This document shows positions 760-5,369 of a stretch of 5,369 bases of DNA, piece by piece. Each line of letters begins with the position of its first letter. The stretch's first letter is position 1. The position numbers and the translations under genes were made by a program. The notes below the pieces were generated by a model, which did not search any database, was not told the origin of the DNA, and worked only from the letters and a program-made list of their open reading frames with translations. Source of the DNA: an uncultured Bacteroidales bacterium (GTDB lineage Bacteria; Bacteroidota; Bacteroidia; Bacteroidales; UBA932). The DNA is taken from NCBI GenBank assembly GCA_945912085.1, contig CAMEBJ010000098.1:1-5369 (forward strand), given 5' to 3'.

Positions 760-2019
760 ATGGGAAACACTAATTACTTTCCGTCCGTAAAGGACATTGA
801 AAAAGCCGCAGGCATACTCGAGGAAATTCTCGAACCCACACCCCTGCAGATCAACCACAGACTCTCTGTAAGCTATGATGCGGAAATCTACCTCAAGAGG
901 GAAGATCTCCAGACCGTAAGGTCCTACAAGATAAGGGGGGCATACAACAAGATCCGCAGTCTGTCTCCTGATGTTCTGAAATATGGAATAGTCTGCGCCA
1001 GCGCAGGAAACCATGCGCAGGGAGTAGCCTTCTCCTGCAACAAGCTTCAGATAATGGGCTCCATCTATATGCCGACAACGACCCCGCGCCAGAAAATCGA
1101 TTCCGTCAAGATGTTCGGAAAGGAATATGTTGACATCGTGCTGACCGGCGACACCTTTGACGCGGCGAACACTGCCGCTGTCGAATATGCAAAGAGGAGC
1201 GGAAAGACCTTCATCCCTCCGTTTGATGACAAGAAAATCATTGAGGGACAGGGCACAATAGGACTTGAAATCTGCAAGCAGATGAAGACCCCTCTTGATT
1301 ACATATTCATCCCGATTGGAGGTGGCGGACTTGCCTCCGGAGTAGGTGCCTTCATCAGGCAGACCTGGCCTGACACCAAGATCATCGGGGTGGAACCTGC
1401 CGGAGCAGCCTGTATGAAAGCCTCCATCGACAACGGCTACCCGACAGAACTGGAGAGTATCAACAAATTCGTGGACGGAGCGGCAGTCAAGAAAGCCGGT
1501 CAGTTGACCTACGGGGTCTGCAAGGATGTCCTTGACGATATCATCCTCGTTCCGGAAGGAGCTGTCTGCACGGCCATCATTGAGATGTACAACAAGAACG
1601 CAATCGTGGTGGAGCCTGCCGGAGCACTTTCCGTGGCTGCCCTGAGGCAGTATTCCGACAAGATTAAGGGCAAGAAGGTTGGCTGCATCATCAGCGGAAG
1701 CAACAACGACATCATCAGGATGGAAGAAATCCGCGAGAAATCAATGATTTACGAAGGGTTGAAACATTACTTCATAGTCAACTTCCAGCAGAGGCCCGGT
1801 GCAATCCTGTCGTTCATCAGGGACATCATCGGTCCTACGGACGAACTCGCGTATATTCAATATATCAAAAAGACCAACAAAGAGGAGGGACCGGCCCTCA
1901 TAGGCATAGAAGTCGCGAGCAAGGACGATTTCCACGCGCTGATCAAGCGTATGGAGGCAAACAATATTCTCTACGAGTATATAAACGAAAACAACAAACT
2001 TCTTGAAATACTTATTTGA
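760..2019 (+). CDS. ilvA: Threonine dehydratase (threonine ammonia-lyase), biosynthetic, short single-ACT-like form
   Basis: The 419-residue product is a PLP enzyme converting L-threonine to 2-oxobutanoate and ammonia (EC 4.3.1.19), the committed step of isoleucine synthesis. The PLP-binding lysine is K57 in SYKIRGAYN (codon 928-930). Other fold-type II landmarks are SAGNHAQGVA at 81-90, the phosphate-binding glycine loop GGGGLASG at 187-194 and SGSNND at 312-317. After the catalytic core, residues about 333-419 form one ACT-like regulatory domain (HYFIVNFQQRPGAIL, then an IQYIKKTNKEEGPALIGIEV-like strand). This matches the shorter family (about 400-420 residues, TIGR02079 type) rather than the E. 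coli form of about 514 residues with two ACT-like subdomains. The start ATG lies 4 bases after the thiN stop. The stop TGA overlaps the ilvE start by one base. Isoleucine feedback through the ACT-like domain is inferred from the family. Confidence 0.96.
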   Translation: MGNTNYFPSVKDIEKAAGILEEILEPTPLQINHRLSVSYDAEIYLKREDLQTVRSYKIRGAYNKIRSLSPDVLKYGIVCASAGNHAQGVAFSCNKLQIMGSIYMPTTTPRQKIDSVKMFGKEYVDIVLTGDTFDAANTAAVEYAKRSGKTFIPPFDDKKIIEGQGTIGLEICKQMKTPLDYIFIPIGGGGLASGVGAFIRQTWPDTKIIGVEPAGAACMKASIDNGYPTELESINKFVDGAAVKKAGQLTYGVCKDVLDDIILVPEGAVCTAIIEMYNKNAIVVEPAGALSVAALRQYSDKIKGKKVGCIISGSNNDIIRMEEIREKSMIYEGLKHYFIVNFQQRPGAILSFIRDIIGPTDELAYIQYIKKTNKEEGPALIGIEVASKDDFHALIKRMEANNILYEYINENNKLLEILI

Positions 2020-3050
2020 TGATGGATTGGAATAATCTTGGATTCTGCTACAGGAAATCCGCGACAATGTTGATTTGCCGCTATAATGGCGGAGCGTGGG
2101 GGAAAATCGAAAGCAGCACAGACGACCACATCCTGCTGAGCGCATTTGCAGGTGCATTGCACTACAGCATCGAATGCTTCGAAGGCTTGAAGGCTTTCCG
2201 TGGTGTTGACGGAAAAATCAGGATTTTCAGGCCTGAGGAGAATGCACGGAGGATGATTTCCTCTGCCGAATTTCTCAACCTGCCCTGCCCAAGTGAGGAA
2301 CTTTTCATTGAGATGTGCAAACAAGCAGTCAGGGAGAATCTCGATTTTCTGCCTCCTTACGGGACAGGAGCTTCGCTTTACCTGAGACCAACCCTCATAG
2401 GAAGCAATCCTCAACTGGGAGTCCAGAGCGCCAAAGAGGCTCTTTTCCTTCTGCTCTGCGCTCCGGTGGGTGCCTACACGGGAGGAAATCTTGAGCCTTG
2501 CAATGCCGTGATTGCCAGAAACTATGACAGGGCGGCCACCTACGGGACAGGGTGTTACAAACTTGGTGGCAACTATGCCGCTTCCCTCCGTTCCCTGAAC
2601 ATAGCACACAGCCAGGGCTACAAGGCAACTCTTTACCTTGACCCTCACTCGCACACTCTCATCGATGAGTTCAACTCATCCAACTTCTTCGGAATCAAAG
2701 GGAACACATATGTCACTCCGCTTTCGGATACCATTCTTCCGTCCATCACCAACAAGACCCTCGAAGCGGTTGCAAAGCACCTCGGGATGGAGGTGGAAAG
2801 AAGGGCCGTTCCTGTGGAGGAGCTTGCAGAGTTCGAGGAGGTCGGTGAATGCGGAACTGCTGTGATCATCACTCCTGTGGATTACATCGATGACAAGCCT
2901 TTCCTCGAGACCACGGATCCGGAACTTGTCAAGCGTTACACTTTCGTGACTGAAGGATGCGGGCCGAAGAGCCTGAAACTTTACAGGCAGATTACCGGCA
3001 TTCAGTATGGGGAGTTGGATGACACCTTCGGCTGGTGCCTGTTCGTATAA
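2019..3050 (+). CDS. ilvE: Branched-chain amino acid aminotransferase, type II
   Basis: This class IV PLP aminotransferase (about 343 residues, EC 2.6.1.42) should catalyse the reversible last step of isoleucine, leucine and valine synthesis with glutamate as amino donor. Family landmarks, numbered from the ATG at 2019, are ALHYSIECFEGLKAFR at 46-61, the active-site lysine K181 in GCYKLGGNYAAS (codon 2559-2561), LIDEFNSSNFFGIKG at about 214-228 containing the PLP-contacting glutamate, LPSITNKTLE at about 240-249 and GECGTAVIITP near residues 277-287. The architecture matches the eukaryote-like type II group (TIGR01123). TTG 2016, ATG 2019 and ATG 2022 are in frame. I prefer ATG 2019, which forms a TGATG stop-start junction with ilvA and suggests translational coupling, though ATG 2022 (342 residues) is equally plausible. 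The stop TAA (3048-3050) lies inside the left arm of the foldback element, so the last residues may have been changed by its insertion. Confidence 0.94.
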   Translation: MMDWNNLGFCYRKSATMLICRYNGGAWGKIESSTDDHILLSAFAGALHYSIECFEGLKAFRGVDGKIRIFRPEENARRMISSAEFLNLPCPSEELFIEMCKQAVRENLDFLPPYGTGASLYLRPTLIGSNPQLGVQSAKEALFLLLCAPVGAYTGGNLEPCNAVIARNYDRAATYGTGCYKLGGNYAASLRSLNIAHSQGYKATLYLDPHSHTLIDEFNSSNFFGIKGNTYVTPLSDTILPSITNKTLEAVAKHLGMEVERRAVPVEELAEFEEVGECGTAVIITPVDYIDDKPFLETTDPELVKRYTFVTEGCGPKSLKLYRQITGIQYGELDDTFGWCLFV

Positions 3051-3067
3051 AATAATTTTGAGGAGAC
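3045..3067 (+). repeat. Left terminal inverted repeat of foldback element
   Basis: This 23-base arm starts GTATAAAATAATTTT and ends GAGGAGAC, and it pairs without mismatch with 3181-3203. It contains the last sense codon (GTA) and the stop codon (TAA) of ilvE. The outer part is A/T-rich and the inner part purine-rich, so the stem is stronger toward the element's interior. Confidence 0.9.
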
Positions 3068-3075
3068 CAGGCCCT

Positions 3076-3093
3076 CCCAAAACAAGTTTTGGG
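3076..3093. repeat. Perfect internal hairpin on the left flank of the element
   Basis: CCCAAAAC at 3076-3083 is followed by AA and its exact complement GTTTTGGG at 3086-3093. It is bracketed by CCCTCC-like direct repeats (CCCTCC at 3072-3077 and at 3095-3100). The hairpin lies in the 34-base stretch (3068-3101) that has no counterpart on the right side of the large foldback, so it would protrude as a side branch. Confidence 0.8.
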
Positions 3094-3118
3094 TCCCTCC
3101 TGCCGTCGGCTGCTCACG

Positions 3119-3144
3119 GTGAAAAGTCCACTGGACTGTTTCAC
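3119..3144. repeat. Apical hairpin of the foldback element
   Basis: GTGAAA (3119-3124) pairs with TTTCAC (3139-3144), and AGTCC (3125-3129) pairs with GGACT (3133-3137), leaving an ACT loop and one bulged G at 3138. This gives an 11-pair stem near the centre of the element. Competing pairings exist: AAAAGT (3122-3127) with ACTTTT (3143-3148), and GTGAA (3119-3123) with TTCAC (3152-3156). The tip may therefore switch between folds. Confidence 0.75.
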
Positions 3145-3165
3145 TTTTGCGTTCACGACCTCTAG

Positions 3166-3179
3166 AGCCGAGGGCGGCT
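3166..3179. repeat. Small GC hairpin near the right arm
   Basis: AGCCG (3166-3170) and CGGCT (3175-3179) are complementary around an AGGG loop. The same bases can instead pair with GCCG-T-CGGCT at 3102-3111 on the left side, so local and long-range pairing are alternatives. A CTCTAGAG palindrome lies immediately before, at 3160-3167. Confidence 0.6.
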
Positions 3180-3180
3180 A

Positions 3181-3203
3181 GTCTCCTCAAAATTATTTTA
3201 TAC
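3181..3203 (-). repeat. Right terminal inverted repeat of foldback element
   Basis: This is the exact 23-base reverse complement of the left arm. It begins GTCTCCTCAAAATT and ends TTTTATAC, 24 bases before the stop codon of the minus-strand permease gene. With the A/T-rich tail after a GC-containing stem it could help end plus-strand transcription, but the T-run is interrupted and no canonical intrinsic terminator is claimed. Confidence 0.9.
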
Positions 3204-3227
3204 TATGGTAGTGAGTTATGTGAATGG

Positions 3228-4331
3228 CTATTTTGGAGCTATTTTGTAGAGGAAGCCGGCGATGAACAGGTAGATGACATTAGGCAACCACAGGGCTATC
3301 CAAGGCGGCAGAACCCCGGTGAAGACGAACATCTGGCTGAATCGCAGGAAAAGGATGTAGGTGAATGCCAGGGCGATGCCTATTCCGATATTCCATCCGA
3401 TGCCTCCCCGGCGTTTCTTTGAAGACAGAGCCACTCCCATAATGGTCAGGATGAATGCCGAGAATGGCAGGGCGAATCTGGTGTTTTTTTCAATCAAGGC
3501 GAGTTTGACATCCGGGTCACCGCGCATCTTCTTGATGTGTATAACCTCATTCAACTCCTTGAAGGAAAGAGTTTCCATCTCATCTATCTGCGTCACGAGA
3601 TCACTGACTGACAGGTTTATGACGGTGTCCAGACTCGCTCCGCTTTTTACGTGGTCCTCGATGCCGTCGCCATATTCCCTTATGAAATATTTCTTCAGCC
3701 TCCAGCTGCATTTTGTACTGTCCCACACAGCCTGCTCCGCACTGATCTTCGAAACGAGTTTGTTGTCCTCGACTTTCTCAAGAGTGAAACGGTAGGCCGT
3801 GTTGTTCCAGGTACTGAATGACTCGACAAAGACGAATTCTCCCGGGTTGATTTGGTAGTGAACGTTTCTGTTGGTCTTGACATTGTGCCCGCGTATATAT
3901 TTGTCTTCAAACACCATACGGTCCTTGTTGGCCTGGGGTATGATGAAAAGGTTCAGACAGAGGGACAGCAATGCGATGAGGGAAGCCGAGAATATGTAGG
4001 GAACCATCATCCTGTGAAAGCTTATTCCGCAGCTCAGAATCGCCACAATCTCGGAATTGGCGGCAAGTTTAGAAGTGAAGAATATTACCGTAATGAACAC
4101 GAACAGAGGGCTGAACATATTCATAAAGTACGGTATGAAATTCATATAGTAATCAAAGATGATGGCCTTCAGCGGAGCCTCCTTGCTGACAAAATCATCG
4201 ATTTTTTCACTGATGTCAAAGATGATTACGATGCCGATAATCAGGAGCAGGGCAATGAAAAAAGTCAGGAGGAAGCGCTTGACGATGTAAACGTCAAGTT
4301 TTTTCGGCTTTAGTCTGAACTCTCTGTGCAT
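3228..4331 (-). CDS. lptF/lptG: LptF/LptG family lipopolysaccharide-export permease (YjgP/YjgQ)
   Basis: The 367-residue inner-membrane protein belongs to the LptF/LptG family (COG0795), the membrane half of the LptB2FG transporter that extracts lipopolysaccharide from the inner membrane. Six hydrophobic segments are visible at about residues 18-38, 64-86, 108-132, 286-303, 311-334 and 343-362. A soluble block at about 133-280 between the third and fourth corresponds to the periplasmic beta-jellyroll domain. Family-typical stretches are SPLFVFITVIFFTSKLAANSEIVAIL (about 74-99) and FALPFSAFILTIMGVALSS near 286-304. Length is normal for the family. The start ATG at 4329-4331 is supported by an AGGAGG six bases upstream. 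The gene follows tgt by 13 bases and is probably cotranscribed with it. Bacteroidota normally carry two divergent family members, and sequence alone does not say whether this one acts as LptF or LptG. Its stop TAG (3228-3230) faces the ilvE end across the foldback element. Confidence 0.92.
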   Translation of the reverse strand: MHREFRLKPKKLDVYIVKRFLLTFFIALLLIIGIVIIFDISEKIDDFVSKEAPLKAIIFDYYMNFIPYFMNMFSPLFVFITVIFFTSKLAANSEIVAILSCGISFHRMMVPYIFSASLIALLSLCLNLFIIPQANKDRMVFEDKYIRGHNVKTNRNVHYQINPGEFVFVESFSTWNNTAYRFTLEKVEDNKLVSKISAEQAVWDSTKCSWRLKKYFIREYGDGIEDHVKSGASLDTVINLSVSDLVTQIDEMETLSFKELNEVIHIKKMRGDPDVKLALIEKNTRFALPFSAFILTIMGVALSSKKRRGGIGWNIGIGIALAFTYILFLRFSQMFVFTGVLPPWIALWLPNVIYLFIAGFLYKIAPK

Positions 4332-4344: not shown

Positions 4345-5369
4345 TCAAAGTCTTGTGGTAAGTTTCACGACGGCGGCATCCTTCCAGGCTCGGAAATCCC
4401 CCTTTTCGATGTGCTCGCGTGCCTGGCGGACAACGTCAAGATAGAATGCGAGGTTGTGCTCGCTGGCAATCTCGGCAGCGAGCATTTCACCGGCCACGAA
4501 AAGATGCCGCAGGTAGGCCTTGGTGTAAGTCCTGTCCACGAAAGAGGTTCCCTTCGGGTCAATCGGAGAAAAGTCGTCAGCCCATTTCTGATTGCGCATA
4601 TTGATGATTCCGTCCCAGGTGAAGAGCATTCCGTTGCGTCCGTTGCGGGTCGGCATCACGCAATCGAACATATCCACTCCCCTGGCAATCCCTTCAAGCA
4701 GGTTTGCGGGAGTACCCACTCCCATCAGGTAGCGCGGCCTGTCCTGCGGCAGAAGCGGGCAGACCAGCTCAAGCATCTCGTACATCACCTCGGTCGGTTC
4801 TCCCACGGCAAGTCCCCCGATGGCATAACCTTCCCTGTCAAAAGAAACCGCGTGTTCCACGGCCTCCTTTCTCAAATCCGGATAGACACATCCCTGGACA
4901 ATCGGGAAAAGGGCCTGCGAGTAGCCGTACAGAGGCGGCGTCGAGTCAAAGCGTCTGATGCATCTCTCCAACCAGGACTTGGTCATATCCAATGACTTGC
5001 GGGCATACTTCCAGTCTGCCTGACCCGGAGTGCATTCATCCAGCGCCATAATAATGTCCGCCCCGATTATTCTCTGGATGTCCATATTGTTCTCCGGAGT
5101 GAAAGTGTGGCGCGAGCCGTCTATGTGCGAGGCGAACGTGACTCCGCTCCCGTCCTTTGCGAATTTGCGCATTGAGGCAAGGGAAAAGACCTGGAATCCA
5201 CCGCTGTCAGTCAGGATTGGACGGTCCCAGGAAGTGAACTTGTGCAGTCCGCCTGCCTGACGCAGAAGGTCCAGTCCGGGGCGCAGGTAGAGATGATAGG
5301 AGTTCCCGAGGATAATCTCGGCACCTATGTCCTCACGCAGGTCGCGGTGGTACACACCTTTGACGGAGC
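4345..5369 (-). CDS. tgt: Queuine/preQ1 tRNA-guanine transglycosylase, 5' end beyond window
   Basis: Tgt (EC 2.4.2.29) exchanges guanine at the wobble position of GUN-anticodon tRNAs for preQ1 in queuosine synthesis, or for queuine when salvaged. The frame stays open to the window edge: SVKG precedes VYHRDLRED, matching the conserved family N-terminal region, so the GTG at 5355 is internal and roughly 35-45 N-terminal residues are missing. Visible motifs are LGNSYHLYLRPG, TDSGGFQVFS containing the general-base aspartate (codon 5206-5208), YAIGGLAVGEP for substrate binding, and FDCVMPTRNGRNG with the nucleophilic aspartate (codon 4663-4665). The usual C-x-C-x-x-C zinc ligands are replaced by GTSFVD (4534-4551), although the later histidine in EHNLAFYL is kept. 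The catalytic residues are intact, so activity is expected. It lies directly upstream of the permease gene, an arrangement I recall from other Bacteroidota. Confidence 0.95.
   Translation of the reverse strand, partial: SVKGVYHRDLREDIGAEIILGNSYHLYLRPGLDLLRQAGGLHKFTSWDRPILTDSGGFQVFSLASMRKFAKDGSGVTFASHIDGSRHTFTPENNMDIQRIIGADIIMALDECTPGQADWKYARKSLDMTKSWLERCIRRFDSTPPLYGYSQALFPIVQGCVYPDLRKEAVEHAVSFDREGYAIGGLAVGEPTEVMYEMLELVCPLLPQDRPRYLMGVGTPANLLEGIARGVDMFDCVMPTRNGRNGMLFTWDGIINMRNQKWADDFSPIDPKGTSFVDRTYTKAYLRHLFVAGEMLAAEIASEHNLAFYLDVVRQAREHIEKGDFRAWKDAAVVKLTTRL

Follow-up and report, generated by a model that had tools for sequence, protein, structure and literature searches.

A dispersed REP-like repeat in the tip of a private, perfect stem between convergent ilvE and permease genes of an uncultured Bacteroidales bacterium

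The window, that is, the whole stretch of 5369 bases that was analysed, is one contig of an uncultured Bacteroidales genome of 1.56 Mb (272 contigs, 61% complete). Pfam signatures identify a thiamin pyrophosphokinase encoded at 96-755 and a PLP enzyme with a threonine dehydratase C-terminal domain at 760-2019, followed by an ilvE-like gene. On the strand opposite to ilvE are found an LptF/LptG permease gene and, from position 4345, a gene for a queuine tRNA-ribosyltransferase. A foldback at 3045-3203 is found where the ilvE and permease genes converge. The features discussed below are as follows:

2016-3050, plus strand: ilvE-like class IV aminotransferase gene (Pfam PF01063), whose end falls inside the left arm
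3045-3067, plus strand: left arm of the foldback, taken from the inverted-repeat listing; private, its own-genome match being the right arm only
3070-3073, plus strand: left side of the inner complementary tract, pairing with 3176-3179 in the predicted fold
3076-3093, plus strand: first protruding hairpin of the predicted fold, with a 7-bp stem and a 4-nt loop (CCCAAAA-CAAG-TTTTGGG)
3096-3163, plus strand: dispersed REP-like core (covariance model R1, 76.9 bits), with DNA matches elsewhere in the genome
3119-3144 (about), plus strand: core hairpin according to the predicted fold and the ten-copy alignment (AGTCC-ACT-GGACT with flanking pairs)
3176-3179, plus strand: right side of the inner complementary tract in the predicted fold
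3181-3203, plus strand: right arm, the perfect reverse complement of the left arm
3228-4331, minus strand: LptF/LptG permease gene (Pfam PF03739), transcribed towards the element, with 24 nt between it and the right arm

The two arms are the sole inverted repeat listed within 2900-3350, and they can be extended to 3045-3070 and 3178-3203 (26 nt, 96%, 107 nt apart). The first-pass annotation of this DNA had described perfect 23-base inverted ends, a second, inner complementary tract and two protruding hairpins. All of these were recovered: the arms are complementary at all 23 bases, the inner tract pairs 3070-3073 with 3176-3179 in the predicted fold of the plus strand, and hairpins are present in the predicted fold at 3076-3093 and about 3119-3144. 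It had also reported flanking TA dinucleotides, which on reading the sequence turn out to sit within the arms (GTATAA...TTATAC), and we saw no target-site direct repeat in the sequence just outside 3045-3203. RNA folding yielded -73.4 kcal/mol for the plus strand (z -8.8) and -77.2 kcal/mol for the minus strand (z -9.1), and on neither strand did any of 200 dinucleotide shuffles give a fold as good. The left arm is not purely intergenic, since its first six bases (3045-3050) supply the final sense codon and the stop of the ilvE-like gene. The stretch 2700-3500 had no match among plasmids.

A search of the host genome with 3030-3220 returned nine matches, consisting of the window itself, the two arms to each other and six matches confined to the inside. 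Within this 61% complete genome the window arms thus match each other only. DNA matches of the core were found on contigs C165, C81, C8 (three matches) and C194, as well as on C135, and a covariance model built from ten core copies detected the core in nine places, window included. The same model found it in 42 of 300 genomes of the genus, including this one. The element therefore has two layers, a private stem and a REP-like repeat in its tip. The earlier description of a 'dispersed structured repeat' is borne out for the inside, at 3096-3163, with its nine places in this genome and its presence across the genus, and does not apply to the stem, which is single-copy.

The number of core copies reaches 13 in one genome, G146, and seven matches were found in another, G136. 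Eight of the 13 copies of G146 lie less than 500 bases from a contig end, a situation that is frequent for true repeats. In a survey of the order, two of 247 genomes matched the core, both from its own genus, one of the 173 genera sampled; with the stricter Infernal filters of this survey, no core was found outside the genus among the 247 genomes. An exact degenerate core pattern had no match in viral contigs. In a collection of 84,980 species genomes it retrieved 40 stretches, each from a MAG titled Bacteroidales or Bacteroidia and many with ruminant sample names. We also noticed a longer type of repeat, whose inverted ends are TTGCGAAA-like and which contains the core (L003, L006, L077-L085, L056 and L102), several copies of which are present in G146. 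At L064 and L095-L100, the core lies in or beside 'gattgccacgtcg ... cctcgcaatgaca' repeats, which are also found nearby without the core.

The core bears some resemblance to REP elements. In the accessible part of PMC3733652, the REPs of the GTAG- and CGTC-tagged superfamilies are presented as short dispersed hairpins, often located at convergent gene ends, with some inside coding genes, truB among them; some are thought to be moved by RAYTs, and others have no known transposase. The core is similarly a short dispersed hairpin, and its window copy is located at convergent gene ends. However, the alignment of ten cores contains no conserved GTAG tag and CGTC is not kept, no link with a RAYT was found, and the parts of PMC3733652 available to us do not describe a private long stem around a REP. 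That a RAYT-type (Y1) transposase moved the repeat, the arms being due to chance or to later mutation, is consistent with the nature of the core and with Y1_Tnp matches in eight of 12 core-bearing genomes. Nevertheless, we consider this scenario improbable, since no Y1 was found in the genome of the window (61% complete) or in G136 with its seven core matches, G263 and G083. In addition, none of the five Y1 loci that were fetched, 12 further matches aside, has a core nearby (best match 8.8 bits, E 0.73).

We then compared the flanks of the core copies. From 87 model matches, 10 were left out (seven places fetched twice, one weaker second match at L015 and two partial matches, one repeating the other), and 77 copies were kept. 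Seven of them, with less than 90 nt on one side, were left unscored. For each of the 70 others, the left flank was aligned to the reverse complement of its own right flank, and the right flanks of every other copy served as controls, giving 4830 cross-pairs. Arm scores of at least 15 were obtained for 15 of the 70 copies, as compared with eight of the 4830 cross-pairs. Eight copies, including that of the window, scored above every cross-pair (maximum 21). The window copy, at 25.5, ranks third together with L054, after L063 (29) and L061 (28), and its best cross-pair score is 10.5. The arms of the 15 armed copies are mutually dissimilar (best score 10.5), and therefore the same core is found in hairpins with site-specific stems. 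Several of these armed copies are located between convergent genes (L030, L049 and L109).

The remaining 55 of the 70 copies score below 15. They include copies with weak or decayed arms scoring 11.5-13.5 (L086, L087, L088, L091, L092 and L110), and many low-scoring copies are located within other repeats, accompanied by a TTGCGAAA-like pair or adjacent to 'gattgccacgtcg...cctcgcaatgaca'-like sequences. At L088 and L093, intergenic copies are found beside what is apparently the same gene in two species, and the similarity between the arms extends in the direction of the coding end of that gene or enters it. Their arm scores are 12 and 17.5, each above all 138 of their cross-pairs, and at both loci the far arm looks as if it were the copy.

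These comparisons bear on the earlier proposal of a MITE whose 23-base inverted ends are mobilized in trans by an IS630/Tc1-mariner-like transposase. MITEs are short, non-coding elements with inverted ends, and the foldback has these properties and is in part dispersed. However, its arms have no other match in the 61% complete genome, the ends of the armed core copies differ at each of the 15, and no target-site duplication was seen. A MITE with conserved ends is thus not supported, the arms being private, and we find mobilization of this kind barely credible.

To what extent the stem belongs to its location can be appreciated from the same junction in sister species. Among 56 loci examined, which are the best-scoring ones fetched and represent a subset of the genus, 11 hold the ilvE and permease genes together, and in eight of those the gap is at most 204 nt. 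In seven of these eight compact junctions, the gap folds into a long hairpin that is unrelated in sequence and lacks the core. The exception has a gap of 27 nt; in a ninth locus the two genes touch each other, and in two others they are ~1 kb apart. The hairpins of the sister junctions are mostly simple. That of L025 combines 21-bp arms with a different kind of branched loop. It is therefore common for this junction to hold a hairpin whose sequence has been renewed, as would be the case for a bidirectional terminator, and what makes the window special is the repeat in the hairpin tip, not the presence of a hairpin.

The first-pass annotation had envisaged that a single-copy structure conserved at this site across the genus would be a local regulatory RNA or a terminator. 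The stem is indeed single-copy and seven of the eight compact junctions have a hairpin; those hairpins are nevertheless unrelated to it in sequence. For this reason, the window hairpin does not represent one conserved regulatory RNA of the ilvE-lptG junction. We regard such an RNA as very improbable in spite of the very stable fold and of the hairpins at the same junction in sister species, given that the latter are mostly simple, that the foldback has no Rfam match (E up to 1) and that the core is present at other loci.

An older bidirectional terminator hairpin between ilvE and lptG might also have had its loop invaded by the REP-like core, in which case the arms would be the old terminator stem. 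The unrelated, core-less hairpins of the seven compact junctions, the arms and branched loop of L025 and the armed copies at convergent genes (L030, L049 and L109) all agree with such a history. However, a terminator scan listed two partial sites, one per strand (against 0.4 in shuffles, sd 0.7), neither of which equals the full stem, and the stem does not look like a textbook terminator, although its position would suit one. The private-arm design is also found in open reading frames, where no terminator is expected, and empty hutI loops have room for one arm only (n=3), as described below. We thus deem loop invasion rather unlikely, if worth serious attention.

Three copies of the core are located in open frames, those of LpxB, of TruB and of an amidohydrolase that we read as HutI. 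We used the three filled proteins as queries in protein searches and analysed the best 120 matches of each. A recognised insert is present in 71 of 120 LpxB, 97 of 120 TruB and 101 of 120 HutI matches. Its position is constant among the best-scoring proteins, and it exists in a short form without the core and in a long form; some proteins lack the insert wholly or partly, with variable ends. As judged from motifs in the same sets of 120, both orientations occur, in proportions of 57 to 14 for LpxB, 93 to 4 for TruB and 12 to 89 for HutI. We compared five pairs of proteins for inversion of the insert, three of which are near-identical outside the insert and carry it in opposite orientations: P0007/P0034 (43/43 and 333/336 residues in the flanks), P0002/P0017 (42/43 and 335/338) and P0241/P0242 (51/52 and 353/354), the last pair having one member with the core and one without. 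The other two are not near-identical, with flanks of 42/43 and 326/338 for P0021/P0002 and a right flank of 297/338 for P0008/P0017.

At the DNA level, the five lpxB loci with this sister module have arms of 22-28 nt, which differ between loci at one and the same codon site, and the weakest arms among the module loci are those of L157 (12.5). In truB, 17 of 30 loci harbour an inverted repeat scoring at least 15, with several kinds of spacer. Arms are shared within two groups of three species (L257/L258/L260 and L261/L264/L266), and therefore they are not always renewed between species.

In order to obtain an unbiased set, we selected loci by a signature of the module and not by their arms. The signature was found in 37 of 400 genomes, and a reversed-pattern control in none. 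Thirty loci were fetched, at most one per genome of the 37; they partly overlap with the earlier loci (e.g. L288 and L293), and two of the 30 were too near a contig end. Of the 28 others, 25 are in open frames of 200 aa or more, and 20 have arms that score at least 15, are 17-30 nt long and are mutually dissimilar (best 13). The spacer length is a multiple of three in 18 of these 20 armed loci. Sequence reading assigned the 25 in-frame loci to nine lpxB, seven M20-peptidase-like, four hutI, four truB and one miaA-like gene, the M20-peptidase-like and miaA-like names being our presumptive labels.

How closely the window element is related to the sister module was assessed outside the core. Its first hairpin with flanks is the part of the window most like the module, in L157, with a score reached by four of 500 shuffles. 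In nine comparisons, 14, 86, 258, 4, 486, 39, 89, 128 and 56 of 500 single-base shuffles did as well, so that, beyond the core, the window insert is only weakly homologous to the sister module. The module signature, with up to two mismatches, was found in none of the contigs of the host genome.

Rickettsia palindromic elements (RPEs) are palindromic modules inserted in frame in unrelated protein genes. The sister module is likewise in frame, at 25 of 28 loci, whereas the window copy is an intergenic one, starting at the very end of ilvE and continuing beyond it, and to our knowledge site-renewed private arms are no feature of RPEs. The latter are among the elements named in the accessible part of PMC3733652.

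The hutI loop offers a way to count arms, since 23 of 30 loci have no recognised repeat there. In 21 of these 23, the loop comprises 42-48 aa between fixed anchors, and the two outlying loops have 55 and 58 aa. Three loci have a module at the same codon site with different arms, of 29 bp in L214, 21 bp in L215 and 23 of 24 in L216, and their loops amount to 86, 71 and 69 aa between the anchors. Subtracting the spacer and one arm leaves 46.3, 46.0 and 42.0 aa, whereas subtracting the spacer and both arms leaves 36.7, 39.0 and 34.0 aa, and subtracting the spacer alone leaves 56, 53 and 50 aa. With three loci, these counts favour a native arm plus an inverted copy over arms brought by the module or a pre-existing palindrome. 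The lpxB and truB loops are too variable in length to separate one arm from two. The remaining four of the 30 hutI loci contain other inserts. Other repeat-like inserts are in frame in the hutI loop at L217, L218, L241 and L242, and that of L218 contains a TGTCATTCTGA...CAGGATGACA palindromic repeat. In some congeners, hutI matches carry one in-frame stop codon (L227, L228 and L230).

Altogether, the foldback combines a 23-bp stem private to its locus with a REP-like core that is dispersed, and we consider it somewhat more likely than not that the stem was written, and kept perfect, by template switching of DNA polymerase, whereby flanking sequence is copied back in inverted orientation. The core would reach new places as a non-autonomous REP-like repeat. 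At the hairpin, the nascent strand would switch template and thereby add or correct an inverted copy of the flank, and such a switch would sometimes invert the spacer. At the ilvE-permease site, the product may serve, or may be tolerated, as an RNA hairpin that closes both converging transcripts. For the window locus itself, template switching is inferred from its relatives. Our preferred view is of a REP-like repeat carried by a private stem, itself probably built by template switching, in the position of a bidirectional terminator.

Template switching fits the private and perfect arms, the different arms at one site and the spacers in both orientations, the last of which were seen for the sister module and not for the window copy. 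According to the parts of PMC8604942 that could be consulted, it homogenises the arms of inverted repeats and inverts spacers in coding DNA, and the accessible text of PMC8794818 indicates that it can make perfect hairpin stems in one event. Conversely, the count of one extra arm comes from three hutI loci only, 55 of the 70 core copies score below 15 in the arm test, in truB each of two three-species groups shares its arms, and the window insert has weak homology to the sister module outside the core, with no place bearing the module signature in the host genome, all of which speak against this mechanism. Selection for an RNA stem could keep intergenic arms matched as well, and the opposite orientations, which come from metagenome assemblies, could partly be assembly errors at palindromes. 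The spacers considered here are 54-113 nt long, as against the 2-5 nt of the inverted spacers reported for yeast in the consulted parts of PMC8604942.

The yeast repeats share with the elements described here the matched arms, the two spacer orientations and the occurrence in coding genes, and they differ in the small size of the changed spacers, with no dispersed module mentioned there in the portion of PMC8604942 at hand. The stems of RNA genes attributed to template switching are similar in that a one-event inverted copy gives a perfect stem, and they differ by having no mobile module in the loop, as far as the available part of PMC8794818 goes. The coding palindromes of Nematomorpha mitochondria are also long, perfect inverted repeats in coding genes; however, both of their arms encode conserved protein regions, and no repeat module is named in the accessible sections of PMC6649704. 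In our literature search, mostly of open-access work, we recognised private-armed repeats of this kind in none of the descriptions.

A bolder proposal, which we hold to be possible if doubtful, is that the genus has a class of mobile hairpin modules whose insertion duplicates the target in inverted form. A newly arrived module would copy 20-30 bp of flank in reverse complement, so that such modules would have no fixed ends and each site would have a private stem. They would settle both at terminator positions and, in frame, within protein genes, flip in place between strains and switch the encoded loop.

The element bears on two questions, namely by what means small palindromic repeats spread and where long perfect stems come from. 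As the tip marks the repeat and the stem is private to each armed copy, an origin of the stem by template switching is testable locus by locus. Perfect inverted ends, moreover, need not mean transposon ends. In lpxB, truB and hutI, the same design would keep supplying new protein loops that can be inverted, and the related in-frame modules are more surprising than the window copy.

Some further observations were made on in-frame palindromes. In L304, the signature of the module is present in frame in the miaA-like gene, and its arms measure 20 nt. A variant of the signature match, CCTCTGCGGCCAGAGGGG, is recurrent, and in this variant both sides of the module hairpin are changed with the pairing kept. 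The truB loops of L255-L268 contain more in-frame palindromes, of 20-32 bp with spacers of 14 to 129 nt, that are unrelated to the core, and the longest perfect one, of 32 bp, is found in L268.
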